A stretch of DNA of 64,000 bases from an uncultured Paraprevotella sp. (GTDB lineage: Bacteria > Bacteroidota > Bacteroidia > Bacteroidales > Bacteroidaceae): positions 1 to 64,000 of the forward strand of contig CALUIV010000005.1 in NCBI GenBank assembly GCA_944320775.1. Direction: 5' to 3'. Shown piece by piece: positions 13,250 to 61,686 of this stretch (the stretch's first letter is position 1; each line of letters begins with the position of its first letter). The notes beneath the pieces were generated by a model. It made no database searches. It saw only the letters and a list, made by a program, of their open reading frames with translations, and was not told where the DNA came from. The translations under genes and the position numbers were made by a program.

Positions 13250-14911
13250 TTACTTCTGTACTTTCACGCTTGCCTTGCCGTCAGACAATACGTAGATGCC
13301 TTGCTGCAAATTGTCAATGTTGACAGAAGTTACTTTCTGAGCCTGCTTCAACAAACGGCCCTGGAGGTCGTAAACCTGAACGTCAGTAGCTTGATCGAAG
13401 AAGAAGGTGTTGCCCACACGCTGAGTCTCCAGTGCCGGAACATTCTGAATGCCGGTAGTAGAAGCGGCAACAGAAAGAGTAACCTCATAGCTTTCTGTAT
13501 CTACAGAGCGAAGAGCAAAAGTTTCGCCCTTGCGGTCGGCACCGGTAATCAGAATTGTGGCATGCTCGTTAGTAGCACCGCTGTTGCTGAAACCGTATTC
13601 CAATGCAGAAGTGATTTTCTTTTCATTGTTTTGATCCTGGAGTACGTAGCCGTAAACAGATACAACGCCGTTGTTTACGGTCATGGTGTTGAAGTTTTCG
13701 CTGAAATATTTGCCATCGCCTTCAGACAGACCGCTGACATTGCTCCACTGCAATTCGAGAGTTTCCTTGTCCAGAGCTGCTACAAACAGGTCGGTTCCGT
13801 CTGTATGGGTCTGTTCGTTGTTGAAAGCCAGCTGCTGGAAGAAGGTTCCGCCGATATACAGGTTCTTGTCGTCAGCCTTCAGCGCGCCGATGCGGTTGTA
13901 GGCTGCAGACTCTGTGTGTGCCGGCGCATGGAATGTTTTTGTGTTTACAGTCGCATCCTTGATGGATGAAACAATGTAGGCATGCTCGAAAGAGCCCAAA
14001 TCGTCATAAGTAAGTGTAATTTCTTCCGATTTTCCGGCTACATCATATTTTACCTTTCCGTTGGCTACGAAACAGAGGTAAACGGTGCCGTTGTCTACGG
14101 TAAAGTTCAGATTCTCAAATCCCATCTGAGTATACTGGAACTGCTCGGCAACACTGATATGGGCTACAGAAGCTGCTCCCTTCAAGTCGGTGGCATTCAG
14201 AGCAAAGATACCGCCACTCTCCAAATCGCTGTACATGAAGTCGAATACATTCAGATACATACCGTTCCACTTCAAATCGTCGATGCTGACATTACCGGTA
14301 TGAGTAGCCGAAGCATAAATCTTTCCGTTGCTGGCCTCCAGATGTTTGATGGTCATGTAAGGATAGCCGTTGTCCGGAAAATACAGACCGCTGTTGGCCG
14401 CGTCTTCATTGGTCTGTGCCAGGAAGGTACGTACAGCCTGCAACTCTCCGTTAGCATTATAGGATGCAATGAAAGAAGCTGTCTTGTTGGTTTCGTTCTC
14501 TGCTCCCTTGATCTCTTGAGTCTTTCCATCGGTGCTGCCCACTTTGACCACATCGGCAAAAGTACCGGCGATGTATACGTTGTTGCTTTCATCGGTAGTG
14601 ACGCTGGTGATGGTGGCGGCACCGCTCAGACCAATGGCCCAAACAGCTGTACCGTCGGCATTGTATTTGGCCAGATAAGCGCTGTTGGCAACCGGCTCCA
14701 GAGTGCTGGAACCGATAGTGATTACCTCGGTGAACTGACCGGTTGTATAAGTGCTTCCGGTATTGTCAATGCATACCGGTGCCTGAAGATTAAGGTCTTC
14801 GATAGAAGTAACACCGGTGATCTTGGCTGTAAACTCTTGCAGTTCCTCTGCCTGAGTTTGCAGACTCATGCTCAACAAGCCTAAAGAGACGATAAGTAAT
14901 GTTTTCTTCAT
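13250..14911 (-). CDS. T9SS-exported beta-propeller (SBBP-like) protein
   Basis: The 553-residue protein has a signal peptide (LLIVSLGLLSMSLQTQA) and repeated blades of the kind TSVTTDESNNVYIAGTF and SFIASYNANGELQ, the pattern of SBBP-type beta-propeller repeats, over about residues 40-470. The last about 75 residues form a T9SS type A sorting domain (VQVYDLQGRLLKQA, then GIYVLSDGKASVKVQK). It is therefore probably carried across the outer membrane and fixed on the surface. It is the last gene of the operon with SusC and SusD, occupying the place usually held by a SusE/F-type surface lipoprotein. A role in binding the operon's substrate is inferred from that position. Confidence 0.82.
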   Translation of the reverse strand: MKKTLLIVSLGLLSMSLQTQAEELQEFTAKITGVTSIEDLNLQAPVCIDNTGSTYTTGQFTEVITIGSSTLEPVANSAYLAKYNADGTAVWAIGLSGAATITSVTTDESNNVYIAGTFADVVKVGSTDGKTQEIKGAENETNKTASFIASYNANGELQAVRTFLAQTNEDAANSGLYFPDNGYPYMTIKHLEASNGKIYASATHTGNVSIDDLKWNGMYLNVFDFMYSDLESGGIFALNATDLKGAASVAHISVAEQFQYTQMGFENLNFTVDNGTVYLCFVANGKVKYDVAGKSEEITLTYDDLGSFEHAYIVSSIKDATVNTKTFHAPAHTESAAYNRIGALKADDKNLYIGGTFFQQLAFNNEQTHTDGTDLFVAALDKETLELQWSNVSGLSEGDGKYFSENFNTMTVNNGVVSVYGYVLQDQNNEKKITSALEYGFSNSGATNEHATILITGADRKGETFALRSVDTESYEVTLSVAASTTGIQNVPALETQRVGNTFFFDQATDVQVYDLQGRLLKQAQKVTSVNIDNLQQGIYVLSDGKASVKVQK

Positions 14912-49051: not shown

Positions 49052-50845
49052 TTATAGATAAGTTTTTTTAGAACGACCGGTCGGGTAGCGGTTTTCTTGC
49101 GTCTTTCTCATGGCATTCAGGAAATTTTCGCCCCAAATCAGGCGTAAATCGGCTTCCGAATAGCGTTTCTTGAGCAATGCGCGGGTGAAGTTGATTAATT
49201 CTGCCGCCGAAGCGCATCCTTTGATGCCGCCGTCGCCATCGAAGTCGGTACCGATACCGACATGTTCTATTCCCATCACCCGAATCATGTGTTCGAGATG
49301 GGCGACGGCGTCATGAATGTCAGCTTCGCCTTCATTTCGCAGGAAGCCGTGGTAGAGCGTTACCTGGGCTACGCCATCAGCCTGTGCCAGTGCCCGCATT
49401 TGATCGTCGCTGAGGTTTCGGGGAACAGGGCATAAGGCTTTGCATGATGAATGAGAACATACAATAGGAGTCTTGCTGATTTCCAGTGCATCATAGAAAC
49501 TTTCTTCCGAAGCGTGCGATAGATCTACGAGAATCCCTAGATGATTCATATCCTGAATGACTTGTTCTCCGAAAAGACTCACGCCATGATGTTCTCCATT
49601 GCCACGCGCTGAATCGCAGATATCATTGTCTCCGTTGTGACAAAGCGTCATATAAACGATTCCACGATCGGCAAAATGCTGGAGGTTTTTCAAGTCTCTT
49701 CCGATTGCATAACCGTTTTCGATACCCAGCATGATTGCTTTTTTCCCTTCCTTTTTTAATTTATAGAGATCGTCCGGGGTATAAGCCAAGTCTACTGCAT
49801 GTTTGTTCTGGCTAACCAGAACTTCTATTTGGTCGAGTAAACTGTCGGCTTTTTGTTTTGCTGCCAGCAAGGATTGTTCGTCTCTTTCCTTTTGTTCCAA
49901 GTAAGCCACCATAATCGTTGCATCCAGTTTTCCCTCGTCCATTTTGTGCAGATCTACGAGTATGTTTGGATCCCTATGATCAAAACGGATGTTTTTATGG
50001 AAGAACATCGGAGTGTCACAATGGCTGTCCAGCGTGAGGATATTCTGATGAATCTTTTTGGCTTCATGGAAGGAGATTGCTTCGGCGGTGAGCCATTCAA
50101 AAAGCGGCATCATCGTTTGATCCTGGTTCAGGATGAAGCATTCCGGATGCCATTGGACTCCGATTATAGATTTGTATTCTGTTGATTCAATGGCTTCTAT
50201 AATTCCATCAGCAGATTGTGCTGCTATTTGGAAGGCAGGTCCTGGATCTGCCACAGCCTGATGATGAAACGAGTTGACTGCAATTCGTTCGGAGTTCATA
50301 ATCTTGGCGAGCAGACTATGAGGAGTTATTGAAATCCAATGCGAGGCAAACCGGCGATCCAACTCCTGACTGTGTTTAATAAGTGGTTTGTCGTTTTGCT
50401 TGTAGATGTCTTGATAGAGTTTTCCACCTAAGGCTGCAGCCAGAATTTGTATACCGCGGCAGATGCCCAATATAGGAACTTGTCGGTCTGCTGCCATTTT
50501 GGTCAGTAACAGTTCCATGAGGTCGCGTTTGTAATTGACCGTTCTCAGTTCTTTTATGGGATCTTCATCCAGAAACAGCGGATTGAGGTCACCGCCACCG
50601 GAAAGAACAAGCCCGTCGATACGGTCCAGAATATCTGCCAGCTGCTGATTATTGTCTGTTGGAGGAATAATCATTGGGATTCCGCCGGCTTTTTGTACGG
50701 ATTCATAATATCCTTCTGCCAGTTCACAACCTTTTTCTCCAAAATTACCAGTTATACCAATCAGTGGTTTTTCTTTGTTTTTGGAGAATCCTTTATGGAG
50801 TTGGTGATAGGTCTCCTGCCAATTAAAATATCCGTTATTTATCAT
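49052..50845 (-). CDS. Fusion of class I glutamine-amidotransferase (PuuD-like) and M19 dipeptidase
   Basis: The 597-residue protein has two domains. Residues 25-255 are a C26 gamma-glutamyl hydrolase domain: DGLVLSGGGDLNP, nucleophile Cys129 in ILGICRGIQ, and His233/Glu235 in GVQWHPE. Residues 262-585 are a membrane-dipeptidase (M19) domain: LDSHCDTP (His275, Asp277), GIENG near 373, LVDLSHAS near 440 and GIGTDFDGDGG near 535, the metal-binding set. No signal peptide is present, so it is cytosolic. The pairing suggests hydrolysis of gamma-glutamyl compounds and then of dipeptides. The start follows directly on the stop of the Lrp regulator gene (stop 50846, start 50845). Confidence 0.88.
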   Translation of the reverse strand: MINNGYFNWQETYHQLHKGFSKNKEKPLIGITGNFGEKGCELAEGYYESVQKAGGIPMIIPPTDNNQQLADILDRIDGLVLSGGGDLNPLFLDEDPIKELRTVNYKRDLMELLLTKMAADRQVPILGICRGIQILAAALGGKLYQDIYKQNDKPLIKHSQELDRRFASHWISITPHSLLAKIMNSERIAVNSFHHQAVADPGPAFQIAAQSADGIIEAIESTEYKSIIGVQWHPECFILNQDQTMMPLFEWLTAEAISFHEAKKIHQNILTLDSHCDTPMFFHKNIRFDHRDPNILVDLHKMDEGKLDATIMVAYLEQKERDEQSLLAAKQKADSLLDQIEVLVSQNKHAVDLAYTPDDLYKLKKEGKKAIMLGIENGYAIGRDLKNLQHFADRGIVYMTLCHNGDNDICDSARGNGEHHGVSLFGEQVIQDMNHLGILVDLSHASEESFYDALEISKTPIVCSHSSCKALCPVPRNLSDDQMRALAQADGVAQVTLYHGFLRNEGEADIHDAVAHLEHMIRVMGIEHVGIGTDFDGDGGIKGCASAAELINFTRALLKKRYSEADLRLIWGENFLNAMRKTQENRYPTGRSKKTYL

Positions 50846-55079: not shown

Positions 55080-56765
55080 TTAATCTTCTTTTGTGTTGGA
55101 CTCGATACGAGCCTCGATAGTATTGATAATGTATTCGCTTAGTTTTTCACATTCGTTAATGATGTCTAAATACATGGTACCAATGTGATAGGAATATTCG
55201 TGATTATTTACGTCGATGGCATTCAGATTGCGCAATTGTTTCCGAAACTTTTTGATTTCCTGGCAAATGTAGTTGGCCGTACGGGCCTCGGCTGGAGGCC
55301 GGCGCATGGAAAGAATGCGTTTCATTTCTTGTAGTGCCTGATCCGTGAGCTGGAACAATTGGTGGAGATGGTCGAGTTGTTTACTCGTAAAGAGCTGCTT
55401 CCCATGATATTTGGTAGAAATGATGTGTGACAGAATATAACAACTGTCCGCGATGCTTTCCAGTTCGGATACTTCGCGCAACATACAACGGATTTGGTTT
55501 TTTGTGTCCGAACTGAGCAAGTCGTCACTGACTTCTCCTAAATAATCCGCAATTTCTTCTTCCAGAGCATCGCTGGCATCTTCGAGCTTGCGGATCTTCA
55601 TATAAATTTGGCGGAATTCAACAGTATTGTTTATGGTTATCAGGTAGCGTACCTGTGTAAACATTCGGCAGGTCATTTCGGCAAAGCCGTTTATTTCTTT
55701 TTGAGCTTCCAATACTGAAAGCTCTGGGGTTGCTAAGAGTCCTCCGGTGATGTAACGCAGTTCGTTGGTATCTTCGTTTTCTTCATCATTTTTGGGAACA
55801 ATATTATTGACCAATCGTTCGATAGGCTTGATGAACCAGATAAAAAGAGCTACGTTGCAAAGATTGAAGCAGGTGTGAAATGCTGCCAATACATAGGTCA
55901 GTGCATGTTCCTCCAGTCGTCCGGTAGTCTGATATCCCATTGTATTGCAAACCGTTTCAATGAAGTATGGAAAAATCCAAAAGACCCATAAAACGCCAAA
56001 CAGATTAAAAATCAATTGGGCCATTGCAGTTCTTCGTGCGGTTAGATTTGCTGATGAGGCAGCGTAATAGGTGATCAGACCACGACCGATATTTTCGCCT
56101 AAGACGAGGGCGATACCTGAATAGATGGAAATGATACCTGTAGAGCAGAGAATCATGCTGGCTGCCATCAGTGCTGCCGAGGACTGGAAGCAAAGGGTAA
56201 ACACACCACCGCACAAGAGCAGAATCAGATAAGAACCGTAGTTGTCGCTCAGACTTCCGAATATTGCCGACAGAACCGGACTGGATGTCAGTTGCAGATC
56301 GTCCGTGAATTCATAGAGTAACCTTAGCCCCAAAAACATGAAGCACAGACCAAAAATGGATTCTCCAAGTGAACGGTAGTCACGTAACTTGACCAGCCAC
56401 AAGGCTACAAAGAAAAGTGGGAAAATATAATAACTGATGGCATAGTTGAATTCGGCTGCCATAATCCAGGCTACAAACGTGTTTCCTACACTGGCTCCCA
56501 TAATCATGGACAAACCTTGAATAAAGGTCAGGATACCGGCATGGACAAAACCGATGGTCATAACCGATGTCGCTGATGAAGATTGAATGATTGCAGTAAT
56601 GATGGCGCCTGTGAGAAATGAAGTAAACCGATTGGTTGTCAGGGTATCCATAATGTGGCGGAGTTGATTTCCTGCCATTTTCTGCAAACTTTCTCCCAAT
56701 AACTTCATGCCATAGATCAGCAGACCAAGGGAACCGAGAAATTTTAAAAATATTAAAATTGTCAT
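55080..56765 (-). CDS. Na+/phosphate cotransporter family protein with PhoU-like domain
   Basis: The 561-residue inner-membrane protein has about nine hydrophobic segments in residues 1-320 with two inverted QSSSA-type repeats (AIIQSSSATSVMTIGFV near 60 and CFQSSAALMAASMILC near 195), the mark of Na/Pi cotransporters of the NptA/YjbB group. The C-terminal about 200 residues are helical and PhoU-like (FRQIYMKIRKLEDASDALEEE). It probably moves phosphate with sodium and is tuned by its PhoU domain. Its start lies about 50 bases from a plus-strand promoter for the protease gene. Confidence 0.9.
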   Translation of the reverse strand: MTILIFLKFLGSLGLLIYGMKLLGESLQKMAGNQLRHIMDTLTTNRFTSFLTGAIITAIIQSSSATSVMTIGFVHAGILTFIQGLSMIMGASVGNTFVAWIMAAEFNYAISYYIFPLFFVALWLVKLRDYRSLGESIFGLCFMFLGLRLLYEFTDDLQLTSSPVLSAIFGSLSDNYGSYLILLLCGGVFTLCFQSSAALMAASMILCSTGIISIYSGIALVLGENIGRGLITYYAASSANLTARRTAMAQLIFNLFGVLWVFWIFPYFIETVCNTMGYQTTGRLEEHALTYVLAAFHTCFNLCNVALFIWFIKPIERLVNNIVPKNDEENEDTNELRYITGGLLATPELSVLEAQKEINGFAEMTCRMFTQVRYLITINNTVEFRQIYMKIRKLEDASDALEEEIADYLGEVSDDLLSSDTKNQIRCMLREVSELESIADSCYILSHIISTKYHGKQLFTSKQLDHLHQLFQLTDQALQEMKRILSMRRPPAEARTANYICQEIKKFRKQLRNLNAIDVNNHEYSYHIGTMYLDIINECEKLSEYIINTIEARIESNTKED

Positions 56766-56793
56766 AGAGCGAGCGATAATGATGGATAATGAT

Positions 56794-56824
56794 TTTTAAT
56801 ATTCCTTGTCATTACGTATTTTTG
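56794..56824 (+). promoter_or_regulatory. Promoter of the T9SS papain-like protease gene
   Basis: TATTTTTG (56817-56824) is an exact -7 match, with TTTT at 56794-56797 as a -33-like element 19 bases away. Transcription should start near 56831, which places ATG 56944 inside the message. Confidence 0.55.
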
Positions 56825-56979
56825 ACTCAAAATCTTTTTATTTCGATTGGGAAATCCGTAGAATACCGTTTTGGGAGACAAAATTAATAAAAAAATAGTG
56901 ATTTTGTTTGTTTTGGTTGGAACATGTTTGTTTTTTATTTTATATGTTTCCTTCGTGATTTCTGACAACCTTCTTAGGA

Positions 56980-59900
56980 TTGGTTCCGGTGGGGCTCTAT
57001 GGACAAATACCGGAAGAGAATCGTGGGTTTGTGGATACAACGGTATTTCGGACGATTCCCAAGTTTAATCCGGCAGATGAACTTCGTTGGGACGAGCAAC
57101 GAAGTGCTCGGGTTCATGCGCAAGGGCGCAGTGCTCAACGTCCGGTACGTGTGAATAATGCTGAACGGATTTATTTTCCGCCTATATTCCATCAGGAAAA
57201 TGCATCCTGTACGGCTGCTTCCCGTATTGCTTATATGTTTACATATGAGCAGAATGCTGCACGTCGTCTGGATGGCAGTGTCGAAGAAAATCAGTATCCG
57301 ACTCATTATAACTGGTTACACTATTATCAAAATACGGACTATCCTTCTGTGTTGCGCGACCATGGAGTTCCTAATGCCGTTACATATGGTGGGCGTACCT
57401 ATTCAAAAGATTTTGGAGCAGATCAAAACTGGTATAGCAATGATTATGGTTGGATGCAGGGATATGATAAATGGTATTCAGCTATGTTTAACCGAATTGA
57501 CCGTTCTGCTATGTTTCCGCAGAATGTGCGTACCGAGGCTGGTCGGGAAGCTGTCAAACAATGGTTGTGGAATCATAGCGGCGACGATTCTTTTGACGCA
57601 GGAGGTGTCTGTGCCATAGATATCGGTTTTGTTGAAGGATTCCATACGGGAACAGTTCCTCAAACAACCGTAAATAAAGAAATCGGTGCTGCAGGCGAAG
57701 GCTATGTGGTGCGTTGGGGCGTTGCAGTTGACCATTCCATGGTTGTTGTCGGTTATGACGATCGTGTAGAATTTGATTTGGATGGCAACGGAATTGCCGG
57801 AGAAAAAGATAAAGATGAAGTCGGTGCTTGGATTGTGGCCAATACTTGGGGTGAAACTTGGGATGGTAATGGTTTAATCTATTATCCTTACAAAACGGCA
57901 GTCTGTATCGGAACTGACGGTGCAGGTATGCCCGATCAGTATTATCGTGGCTATTGGATGCCCGATGTTTATTTTGTACGGCGTGATTACCGTCCTTTAC
58001 GAACGATGAAAATGGCACTTGATTTCAGTCATCGGAGTGAGATTACGCTGGTTGCCGGAGTGGCTTCCGATACGGCGGCAACCGAGCCGGAACGTACGGT
58101 GGCTATGGAATATTTCAAGTTTGCCGGAAATGGTATGAAGCTCGACGACAATATTTATCCTGACGCGGCAACTCCGATGTTGGGCAGATGGGCAGATGGA
58201 ACGTTGCATACGGAGCCTATGGAACTGGGATATGATCTGACAGCATTGACCGAAGGATTTGATTTACGCAAACCATTGAAATATTTCTTTATTATCGAAT
58301 CCAAACAATCGGCACAGGGTGTCGGTCGTGTACATAATCTGTCGGTTATTGATTATGAATTCGACGCCCATGGTATTGAGACGATGGCTCAACTGCCAGA
58401 AGAAGGTGTATCGATACAAAATAAGGGAGGCCGTACAGTACTTTCCGTAGTGATGTCGGGCGAATCGTTTCCGATGCCGCGTAATTTGACCGGTGCTTCT
58501 GGAAAACTGCAATGGGAAGCGCCGGCAGCTTCGGCTTATTCGGTATCTGGTTTCCGGATTTATCAGGGAAAAACATCTGTGGCTGATGTTGCAGCCGGAC
58601 AAATGGAATATGCTCTGGAAGCAGGAGCGTCCGGACGTTATTCTGTTGTGGCTTTATATGATTTTTGTGGCAAGTCCGTTGAATCGGGTGCTGCTGAAAT
58701 TTATGTTTCCGATCGTCCGGAAATGTCTGCACAGAATCTAGTACGTGAATTATGGGGAGCATCATTTACCGTACCGGATATTTTTGATGAAAAATATCAT
58801 AGTGCTACAATTGAATTTTGGTTGAAGCCTGGCGCACTGACTGATTATAATCAACAGATTGGTCCGGGATGGGGCAAATTTTTATTCCATTCCAGTGCAT
58901 CAAGTGATGTGACAGCCGGATGGACGACAAATTCGCGAACCACTACTCCCGGAGGAATGTTGGCTGTAGGGCGTTGGAATCATGTTGCTCTGGTTGTATC
59001 GGGCAATGAATTGAAAATTTATATTGATGGACAGGAACGTGCATCACTGATTAACAATCAGCAGACCGGTATCGGTGGTTTTGGTGATTTGGTGTTTGGA
59101 TCCAATGGACAGAAGATGAGTGGTCTGATGGATGAGTTGCGTATTTGGTCGGTTGCCCGGACAGCAGAACAGATTCGGTCAATGAAAAATGTTGCTATAG
59201 CTCGTCCGGAGCTGCAAGCTGGTTTGTTGGCTTGTTATCAGATGGATAGTTTTACCAAGGATGGAGCTACTTATCTGTACGATGCAGCAGGTGGCCATCA
59301 TGCTCAGATTACTTCTGGTACTGGTTCTTCTGTTGCTGATGCCGGATTGGCTTTTGATGCGTCGGCTTTGAAAGCTTCGTTTACCGTGCCTTTGGCAGAA
59401 TATTATGTCGGACAGGAAGTCTTATTGCATAGTGATGAAGCGCCGAATGCAGTACGCTGGGCATGGGATGCCCCTGATGCAGGTGTTGCTTCTTTGAATC
59501 GTCGTGACGCAGAGCTGGTATTTTCTGAACCAGGTGAACATGAGGTGACCCTACAGGTTTTTGATATTCAGGGAAATTCTGATCAGTCAACAGCCCGGAT
59601 AAAGGTGGTTCCACTTCCTGATCCGGATGCTACTTTCATGGCTTCTGCAACTGTGGTTCCGGCTTCCGACCGGATTATATTCCAACCAGTTCAGGATTTG
59701 GCTGTGAACAGTTATGAATGGACGATACCCGGAAGTTCACAAGAAAAGATTTACATGAAGCAGGCTGCTGTTTCTTTTCCGAAAGAAGGAAAATATACCG
59801 TAACTCTTAAAGTGACAAATCCGAATGGCTCACAAATGTATAGTATGGAAGTTGAGACCATGTCGGTAGCTCCGAAAGTTGCTTTTGTTGTTACACCCGA

Positions 59901-61686
59901 TGTCGTAGTCAAAGGCGAAAAGACTTATTTGGAGGATCGTACGGAGTATTCACCCGAAACCTGGGAATGGGAACTGGTTAACGGAGATTACCGTTTACTG
60001 GTTCATGGGCAGAATACGTCTTTTGTGACAACTGAGACAGGTAAATATGATGTGACGTTGACGGCAACCAATAAACAGGGTTCCGACCGGATGACTAAAG
60101 TTGGAGCACTTGTGGTTTGTAATGCTGATGGCGGACGCGGACTTCGTTTCTATGGTGATGAGGCACGTGTTGTTTATAAATCACCTTTTACTCGAGCTGT
60201 CAATGAGTTTACTATAGACTGGTGGATGATGCCGAATACGTTACAGATAAAAGGTAATGGAATCGGAAGTCATGCCGGCGAGTTGTTCTTGTTTACAGAA
60301 GCAGATGGTGCGATGACATTACAGGTGGAAGATACATCTGTGAAATCGGTATCCGGATTTGTACGTTCGGGTGAGTGGCATCATTATGCCGTGACATTCC
60401 AAAACGGTTTGGTTACTTTCTATCGCGATGGTGTGGTTGTCGGTCAGGCGCAGCAAATGGCTGTCGGTCAGGTTCCCGAGTTGAAAGATGCTTTTGTCCT
60501 GGGTGGCAGTGAAGCACCGATGTATGGTGTTATTGATGAACTTCAAGTTTGGAATGCAGTTTTATCACTTGATGATCTTCGTCGATATGCCAATGCACCG
60601 ATACGTCCGGATAATGAGCCAGAACCGGAAATTGGTGCTACAGCAGGAACGGTAAGCGATGCGATGAAGGCCGGATTAACACTGTATAGTCCGTTCAATC
60701 AAAACTCCGGCGATGTTCAGGATTTGACTACGAATGCCAATACCGGACGTCGTGAAGGTTTTGGACCTGATGGTGATGCCTGGAGTTCTTCAAAAGGAAT
60801 TTTCTGGTTGAATTTTAATGAACGACAGGTCGAAGATATTACGTCACGTTATCTGATCAACTATATGGCACCGTTCTTGCATGCAGCGACTCCATTTTAT
60901 GCAGATGTTGTTTCGGGATATAATCATTACGCTCTGGAGACTGGTACGGCACAATCCGGATGGATTCTTGAAAATGAACTGACCGGCAATAACGGTTCCG
61001 GTGGGGATGATGGTAAAGGAGACGGTAAAGATGATGGAAAAGATGAGGGGACTGCTTCTTCTATCGTGACAGGTTTCCATGTGACAGACGGAATGTATAA
61101 GAGTTGTATGTCGGTGGAATGTGGTCGTGGATTTGCATTTACACTTCCAAATCATAAGGCATATCAGACGATTACGTTGCCCGCCGGTTTCTATCAGTTT
61201 AGTGTTTCATTCGGTCCTTATTCCAAAACTCTGGAATCTTATCTTGTAGTGTCTGCAGGTGCCGGATTACCGGATGTTGCTAATGTTTCGGAAGCATTGG
61301 CATATACCGATCTGGCCAATGGTAAGCTGACCTTCCAGTTGGCAGAAGAAACAGAAGTTTCATTGGGTGTTCTGATTAATTGGACAGATGAAAACAATTG
61401 GGGATGTATTACGATAGACCGTTTCTCTTTGGGCGAGATTCCTTATGACGAAATTGACGGAAACGGTGAGACTGGTATTGAGTGTGTGCAGCCTGCTGTA
61501 CCTGAAGAAGTAAGTGTACGTGCGGTTCGAGGCGGTCTGTATGTTTCTTCAGACGAGCCACAGTTGGTACAGATTTATACGGTCTCTGGTGCGAAAGTGT
61601 TCCAGGAACGTGTAGTTGGTACACGGCCGATTATGTTATCACCGGGTGTTTATATTGTTAATCGTCAGAAAGTGATGGTGCCATAA
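56980..61686 (+). CDS. Giant T9SS-exported papain-like protease with LamG and PKD domains
   Basis: The 1568-residue frame (from TTG) holds a C1A-type peptidase: Gln72 and Cys77 in FHQENASCTAAS, His252 in VAVDHSMVVVGYD and Asn288 in IVANTWGETW, with an EF-hand-like DLDGNGIAGEKD loop (267-278). Two LamG-like domains (about 600-725 and 1070-1205) flank PKD-like domains (about 800-1050). A Gly/Asp linker and a T9SS sorting domain (about 1507-1568, ending GVYIVNRQKVMVP) follow. The 5' end is odd. The in-frame ATG at 56944 reads MFPS, then TGA at 56956, then FLTTFLGLVPVGLYG/Q, an ideal second half of a signal peptide. The gene is thus either interrupted by a nonsense codon or starts abnormally. Export fails without that peptide. 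Confidence 0.85.
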   Translation: MVPVGLYGQIPEENRGFVDTTVFRTIPKFNPADELRWDEQRSARVHAQGRSAQRPVRVNNAERIYFPPIFHQENASCTAASRIAYMFTYEQNAARRLDGSVEENQYPTHYNWLHYYQNTDYPSVLRDHGVPNAVTYGGRTYSKDFGADQNWYSNDYGWMQGYDKWYSAMFNRIDRSAMFPQNVRTEAGREAVKQWLWNHSGDDSFDAGGVCAIDIGFVEGFHTGTVPQTTVNKEIGAAGEGYVVRWGVAVDHSMVVVGYDDRVEFDLDGNGIAGEKDKDEVGAWIVANTWGETWDGNGLIYYPYKTAVCIGTDGAGMPDQYYRGYWMPDVYFVRRDYRPLRTMKMALDFSHRSEITLVAGVASDTAATEPERTVAMEYFKFAGNGMKLDDNIYPDAATPMLGRWADGTLHTEPMELGYDLTALTEGFDLRKPLKYFFIIESKQSAQGVGRVHNLSVIDYEFDAHGIETMAQLPEEGVSIQNKGGRTVLSVVMSGESFPMPRNLTGASGKLQWEAPAASAYSVSGFRIYQGKTSVADVAAGQMEYALEAGASGRYSVVALYDFCGKSVESGAAEIYVSDRPEMSAQNLVRELWGASFTVPDIFDEKYHSATIEFWLKPGALTDYNQQIGPGWGKFLFHSSASSDVTAGWTTNSRTTTPGGMLAVGRWNHVALVVSGNELKIYIDGQERASLINNQQTGIGGFGDLVFGSNGQKMSGLMDELRIWSVARTAEQIRSMKNVAIARPELQAGLLACYQMDSFTKDGATYLYDAAGGHHAQITSGTGSSVADAGLAFDASALKASFTVPLAEYYVGQEVLLHSDEAPNAVRWAWDAPDAGVASLNRRDAELVFSEPGEHEVTLQVFDIQGNSDQSTARIKVVPLPDPDATFMASATVVPASDRIIFQPVQDLAVNSYEWTIPGSSQEKIYMKQAAVSFPKEGKYTVTLKVTNPNGSQMYSMEVETMSVAPKVAFVVTPDVVVKGEKTYLEDRTEYSPETWEWELVNGDYRLLVHGQNTSFVTTETGKYDVTLTATNKQGSDRMTKVGALVVCNADGGRGLRFYGDEARVVYKSPFTRAVNEFTIDWWMMPNTLQIKGNGIGSHAGELFLFTEADGAMTLQVEDTSVKSVSGFVRSGEWHHYAVTFQNGLVTFYRDGVVVGQAQQMAVGQVPELKDAFVLGGSEAPMYGVIDELQVWNAVLSLDDLRRYANAPIRPDNEPEPEIGATAGTVSDAMKAGLTLYSPFNQNSGDVQDLTTNANTGRREGFGPDGDAWSSSKGIFWLNFNERQVEDITSRYLINYMAPFLHAATPFYADVVSGYNHYALETGTAQSGWILENELTGNNGSGGDDGKGDGKDDGKDEGTASSIVTGFHVTDGMYKSCMSVECGRGFAFTLPNHKAYQTITLPAGFYQFSVSFGPYSKTLESYLVVSAGAGLPDVANVSEALAYTDLANGKLTFQLAEETEVSLGVLINWTDENNWGCITIDRFSLGEIPYDEIDGNGETGIECVQPAVPEEVSVRAVRGGLYVSSDEPQLVQIYTVSGAKVFQERVVGTRPIMLSPGVYIVNRQKVMVP

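Follow-up and report, generated by a model that had tools for sequence, protein, structure and literature searches.

A giant protease frame with no start codon or basic n-region of its own in an uncultured Paraprevotella: probable separation of a predicted surface protease from the front of its signal peptide

The DNA analysed here (the window) comprises 64,000 nucleotides of an uncultured Paraprevotella sp. (contig CALUIV010000005.1, assembly GCA_944320775.1) and carries a 1568-codon open frame for a predicted papain-like protease, whose C-terminus resembles a sorting domain of the type IX secretion system (T9SS). We consider it probable that this frame is a copy of a predicted surface-protease gene whose start codon and signal-peptide n-region, the basic part, are missing, likely through a rearrangement, that its product would be cytoplasmic and that the gene is likely decaying. 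A first-pass annotation of the same DNA had noted an in-frame TGA within an otherwise ideal signal peptide and explained it by one point mutation in this strain, by readthrough or re-initiation, or by a sequencing error. The host genome is a draft metagenome-assembled genome of the Paraprevotella group (2.82 Mb, 61 contigs, 91% complete). The features at the 5′ end of the gene are:

56766..56958, no strand: intergenic stretch in which neither the start codon nor the basic n-region of the relatives was found (10/30 bases in register, maximum 17/30 at any offset)
56944..56955, +: M-F-P-S, ATG plus three codons, the start proposed in the first-pass annotation; no basic residue; homology to an n-region unproven
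56956..56958, +: in-frame TGA, the last codon ahead of clear homology to the relatives
56959..57003, +: signal-peptide remnant (hydrophobic core and c-region), from alignment with P0003, P0004-P0012 and P0014
57004..57006, +: Gln at the predicted signal-peptidase junction, from sequence and alignment (Bacteroidetes Q-rule, excerpt of PMC5837995)
56980..61686, +: 1568-codon open frame with papain-like region, LamG, PKD, DUF5013 and C-terminal sorting-domain-like tail

The stop codon and its reading frame

Read from the ATG at 56944, the frame runs ATG TTT CCT TCG TGA and then F-L-T-T-F-L-G-L-V-P-V-G-L-Y-G-Q-I-P. The TGA is indeed in frame with the 1568-codon open frame, which would start at a TTG, and the downstream frame is intact as claimed, being open from 56959 until the stop at 61684-61686. 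As for the signal peptide, its hydrophobic core and G/Q junction are genuine, since they align with P0003 and ten more distant orthologues, whereas the short basic n-region attributed to it is not found in M-F-P-S. We agree that the product has no usable export signal: the homologues have one, and no start codon close to where the open frame begins yields a hydrophobic core together with a basic residue. The first standard starts past the TGA, TTG 56980 and GTG 56989, give an N-terminus of only 8 or 5 residues ahead of the Gln, which is below the length of a signal peptide, and re-initiation was rejected on this ground. Further upstream, positions 56817-56824 hold an exact Bacteroidetes-type -7 element, TATTTTTG, accompanied by a -33 element with one mismatch; 38 of 500 shuffles equal this arrangement.

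The relatives keep their signal peptide

A search over 5.8 billion proteins returned 1121 matches at E ≤ 1e-100, the best 120 of which were examined. Identity to the window protein is 99% for P0002, 86% over the whole length for P0003 (a single sequence), 58-65% for P0004-P0014 (P0004 and P0005 representing 54 and 278 member sequences) and at most 43% for the remainder of these 120. P0003 has a complete basic signal peptide; from 56959 onward the window aligns with its core and Gln junction. P0004-P0012 and P0014 likewise have a signal peptide; the n-region of the relatives consists of Met and several Lys/Arg over about 10 residues. By a crude signal-peptide call of our own, 109 of the 120 best proteins have a signal peptide whose n-region is basic, and the 11 failures are P0002, P0013, P0056 and eight proteins beginning inside the signal peptide. 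Among the orthologues P0002-P0014, 11/13 pass; P0002 belongs to the same species as the window, and in P0013 the signal peptide is out of frame. At the DNA level, 80 homologous loci from named genomes were kept out of 169 confirmed, and 79/80 have an in-frame signal peptide by our crude script. The window gene has thus lost a functional part, start and n-region, that its relatives keep, as pseudogenes do.

The exception in the DNA survey is L019, the sole locus of the 80 where no signal peptide precedes the protease match in frame (around 3462), which is possibly another broken copy. Another homologue, L085 (G014:C27:33565-37230), has an internal TAA stop inside the matched stretch.

Clear homology ends at the stop codon

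The position of the break was determined by comparing the window DNA with every possible coding of the P0003 N-terminus and counting the best-case base agreement. Past 56958, 97/102 bases can agree over 34 codons. Upstream, with the last codon left out, agreement falls to 10/30 bases against a shuffle mean of 8.0, and 17% of 5000 shuffles are as good. Could the n-region lie further upstream, behind an insertion? At any offset in 56766-56958 the best agreement is 17/30, which is reached by 311/400 full and 379/400 local shuffles, and this candidate was rejected. Ten further orthologues, compared in register with the 30 upstream bases, give 13-15/30, nine of them at chance. Since homology is near perfect from 56959 and at chance upstream, the TGA appears to mark the edge of unrelated DNA rather than a point in an otherwise complete signal peptide; the TGA codon itself may belong to the old gene or to the new flank. 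This speaks against the proposed switching-off by one point mutation, as the homology to the P0003 signal peptide ends at about 56958/56959 and both start and n-region are missing.

The region upstream of the orthologue remnant in genome G009 (see below) has one A/T-rich match to the window DNA, equalled by 9/300 shuffles, and nothing further. At E ≤ 0.001 the genome gave no second copy of the stretch 56766-56958, and no viral contig carries the 31-base stretch just past the break.

The gene neighbourhood is probably rearranged

The divergent neighbour of the protease is the following gene:

55080..56765, −: sodium/phosphate (Na/Pi) cotransporter; in 16/16 genus mates holding it, its neighbour is a kinase gene instead

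Seventeen other genomes of the genus were searched; G015 has no cotransporter match, and in the 16/16 that hold the cotransporter it is divergently paired with a uridine-kinase-like gene (PF00485). In total 20 cotransporter loci were compared, namely one from each of these 16 genomes (L117-L132), the window's own locus and L133-L135. The kinase neighbour is missing at 4/20, which are the own locus and the three second copies L133-L135 (38-45% identity). In the genome studied here the protease occupies the place of the kinase gene beside the cotransporter, and the uridine-kinase-like gene was not found in the assembly. The replacement by the protease of a neighbour pair common to 16/16 genus mates points to a rearrangement, and a breakpoint inside the signal-peptide region of the protease gene would be the simplest reading. 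The orthologues of two other species adjoin an alkaline-phosphatase-like gene (named by eye), whose counterpart in the own genome has other neighbours.

We infer a rearrangement, in preference to a deletion or a local replacement, followed by non-export of the product and relaxed selection. It would have joined the protease body to the Na/Pi-cotransporter gene and removed the start codon and basic n-region; the product, having no export signal, would stay in the cytoplasm, selection would relax and the gene would decay toward loss. This is ordinary gene loss, for which no new mechanism is needed. Two paralogues in the own genome (on contigs C18 and C13; 41-44% identity), both with an in-frame signal peptide, may have made the loss tolerable.

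A second strain and the strength of selection

P0002 comes from another source, represents a cluster of 179 member sequences and starts at GTG 56989, downstream of the break. It argues against a loss limited to one strain, as first assumed, with the proviso that it is known as a protein alone. Ten mature residues distinguish it from the window protein, as does a repeat unit of four residues; the latter lies at about residue 1352 of the 1568-codon frame, where its copy number is unlike that in P0002.

These differences were then compared with the conservation of the orthologues, leaving out columns with any gap and dropping the start-codon residue, which is an eleventh difference. Columns invariant in P0004-P0014 number 682 of the 1486 compared (0.459), and this is the rate expected under no constraint. 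Of the ten differences between window and P0002, 5 fall on invariant columns, about as random changes would, compared with 22/192 of the differences between species (window and P0002 versus P0003; one-sided Fisher p = 0.005). As a control we used the C18 paralogue, which has a signal peptide (partner P0021, 99.8%; sister P0019, 86.7%): here 3 differences were counted, 0 of them on invariant columns (536/1483, from 11 comparison proteins, so that the two comparison sets differ in depth). P0002 and P0021 may come from different strains. Strain differences that strike conserved sites at roughly the random rate are what decay would produce, and on these few changes the protease gene is likely decaying.

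The length of the open frame says less than was first thought. Ten amino-acid changes bring just 0.54 expected stops, and a stop would have a 95% chance of arising only after some 79 neutral substitutions (1.7%). The intact frame is therefore no counter-evidence to decay; it was likewise rejected as proof of recency, and the claim of a very recent loss holds only loosely.

Points of doubt and alternative explanations

Several observations weigh against a decaying copy severed by rearrangement. The absence of the kinase may be just a gap in an assembly 91% complete. P0002 and P0003 are known as proteins alone, so that the P0003 sequence does not show the old neighbourhood of the protease gene; both of their starts are gene callers' choices, and the P0002 start was seen for the cluster representative, so that longer members are possible. 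A degenerate pattern of the P0003 n-region, allowing ≤ 3 mismatches, gave 0 matches in the genome, so that no severed 5′ end turned up at another place. As to decay, the window copy keeps its predicted catalytic Cys, His and Asn, the promoter-like site at 56817 suggests that the frame may still be transcribed, and the numbers of differences (10 within and 213 between species, versus 3 and 201 for C18) do not differ significantly (p = 0.09). Sequencing errors in either strain would moreover mimic the selection signal. Finally, two comparisons with the 30 upstream bases exceed shuffles slightly, with 15/30 for P0014 (p = 0.03) and 11/30 for the G009 remnant, here compared as real DNA (shuffle mean 6.6, p = 0.02), both uncorrected for 12 comparisons. 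The edge may accordingly sit a few codons before the TGA, with those codons belonging to the old gene.

The P0014 and G009 matches slightly lower our trust in the rearrangement reading and slightly raise that in a single nonsense mutation, which would have silenced the gene in one strain within a still complete signal peptide. The TGA, in addition, directly precedes the surviving hydrophobic core, at a column where the relatives have a sense codon. We nevertheless find this explanation unlikely: the ten codons before the TGA agree with the P0003 n-region at shuffle level, in contrast to the 34 that follow, the corresponding position lacks a start codon, M-F-P-S is not basic, and the missing start is common to P0002.

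An artefact, either a metagenome contig wrongly joining transporter and protease or a misread base, seems to us quite unlikely. It would suit a draft in 61 contigs with a neighbourhood unlike that of 16 relatives and with no kinase found, yet P0002, a distinct sequence ten mature differences away, also begins past the break, which makes the sequencing error first suspected improbable, and one misread base cannot account for the absent n-region.

The protein might also be used without Sec export, or be exported from a non-standard start with a short hydrophobic N-terminus; the intact frame and the preserved catalytic residues agree with this, and CTG 56962 as a start would leave the hydrophobic core, without a basic residue. 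We regard it as very unlikely, given the signal peptide at nearly all surveyed loci, strain differences that strike invariant residues and the statement, in an excerpt of PMC12618676, that T9SS cargo needs a Sec signal peptide. A phase-variable 5′ end, in which an invertible or exchangeable segment toggles the signal peptide, is hardly credible: it could draw on an imperfect 21-nt inverted repeat (56874-56894 / 56931-56951, 76% complementary) and on the recurrence of signal-peptide loss in another species (P0013, P0123), but the repeat is A/T-rich and may be a chance match, and neither a second copy of the upstream stretch nor a detached 5′ end was found in the genome.

Broken orthologues in other species

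Severance by rearrangement would not be the only loss in this orthologous group. In G009 (G009:C24:6987-8498, L111) the orthologue matches span residues 42-104 and 1104-1568 while the signal peptide lies in a different frame, and in G016 (G016:C6:82231-82998, L112) residues 1289-1568 only are matched, within a 258-codon frame. P0013 resembles a full-length G009 allele with its signal peptide out of frame, while P0122 and P0123 are further truncated alleles of the protease orthologue. In a tree of the last 290 residues both remnants fall inside the P0004-P0014 group (support 100/100), the G009 remnant beside P0013. As the remnants in G009 and G016 and the proteins P0013, P0122 and P0123 are all broken, loss in this group is recurrent. 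The representatives P0004 and P0005 of the same group are full-length and have signal peptides.

A tentative and rather doubtful extension is that surface display of the giant protease is under repeated counter-selection in the Paraprevotella group, for example by host, phage or competitors, so that the signal-peptide 5′ end fails first while the paralogues stay on the surface. One species would sever the 5′ end by rearrangement, another would frameshift the signal peptide, and the gene body would then decay.

Domains and active site of the predicted protease

The remaining features of the protease gene are:

57208..57210, +: predicted catalytic Cys, the same in all 11 aligned rows, of which the window is one
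57733..57735, +: predicted catalytic His, absent from truncated P0123 only, among the 11 rows
57841..57843, +: predicted catalytic Asn in an N-T/S-W-G motif, absent from truncated P0123 only, among the 11 rows
58795..59175, +: LamG domain, the better of two (PF13385)
60961..61368, +: DUF5013 domain (PF16405)
61549..61662, +: T9SS sorting-domain-like tail, under the curated cut-off (TIGR04183 15.2 bits, cut-off 23)

With PF00112 (peptidase C1) the window protein scores 20.5 bits, under the cut-off of 20.7, and its relative P0030 25.2 bits, over it; the protein is therefore named papain-like and not classed as a member of peptidase C1. The active-site Gln, Cys, His and Asn, presumably catalytic from the papain motif, are all four present in the window protein; they are invariant across P0002-P0031, and Gln and Cys are also invariant in the 11 rows. 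The structure model of the protease domain has a mean predicted local distance difference test score (pLDDT) of only 32, and the best sequence match to solved cysteine proteases has E = 0.017.

The C-terminal T9SS sorting domain of the first-pass annotation is better called a tail-like match, given its score under the cut-off. The tail model reaches block means of 90-95 pLDDT over residues 71-128 (74 overall), and its first PDB match is the C-terminal domain of gingipain RgpB, at a weak E of 0.015, with none ≤ 0.001. TIGR04183 was found at E ≤ 10 in 13/30 homologues. The host genome has an SprA_N match of 749 bits, the sole T9SS component searched for, and 7 TIGR04183 tails above the cut-off, from which a T9SS is likely at work in the host. 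The Sec signal peptide expected of T9SS cargo is lacking in the window gene.

Elsewhere in the window, the region 13250-14911 (−) encodes a protein of 553 residues whose T9SS sorting tail is over the TIGR04183 cut-off (PF18962 24.4 bits, under the cut-off of 27).

Relation to known systems

The closest counterparts are the signal-peptide-bearing papain-like LamG/PKD/DUF5013 proteins of Bacteroidales (P0003-P0012, P0014 and the paralogues on C18 and C13), which have similar length and nearly all the same Pfam domains; the orthologues are 58-86% and the paralogues 41-44% identical to the window protein. These relatives have an in-frame start codon and a basic n-region, whereas the window copy has neither. 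The broken orthologues (G009:C24, G016:C6, P0013, P0122, P0123) are the same orthologous gene. The G009 and G016 copies show frameshift and internal deletion and lie beside the alkaline-phosphatase-like gene, while the window copy is full-length past its 5′ break and lies beside the Na/Pi transporter.

In the excerpt of PMC9477747 consulted, Paraprevotella clara 00502/00509 are T9SS-dependent surface proteins that recruit trypsin; they come from the same genus group and have signal peptides, and we liken them to the window protein by description, not by sequence. Paraprevotella T9SS surface proteins and the Q-rule junction (excerpt of PMC5837995) are thus already known. Judged by titles, we recognised no publication on this protease locus or on 5′ loss in a T9SS protease.

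Where a giant frame is intact but preceded by a stop codon, that codon is open to misreading as a point mutation or as recoding if it marks a homology breakpoint. If our reading is true, a secreted protease is losing export ahead of catalysis. The broken orthologues in two other species turn selection against a surface protease into a testable question.

A last observation concerns window positions 49052-50845 (−), where one frame combines a peptidase C26 (glutamine amidotransferase-like) with a membrane dipeptidase M19, a fusion that looked unusual.
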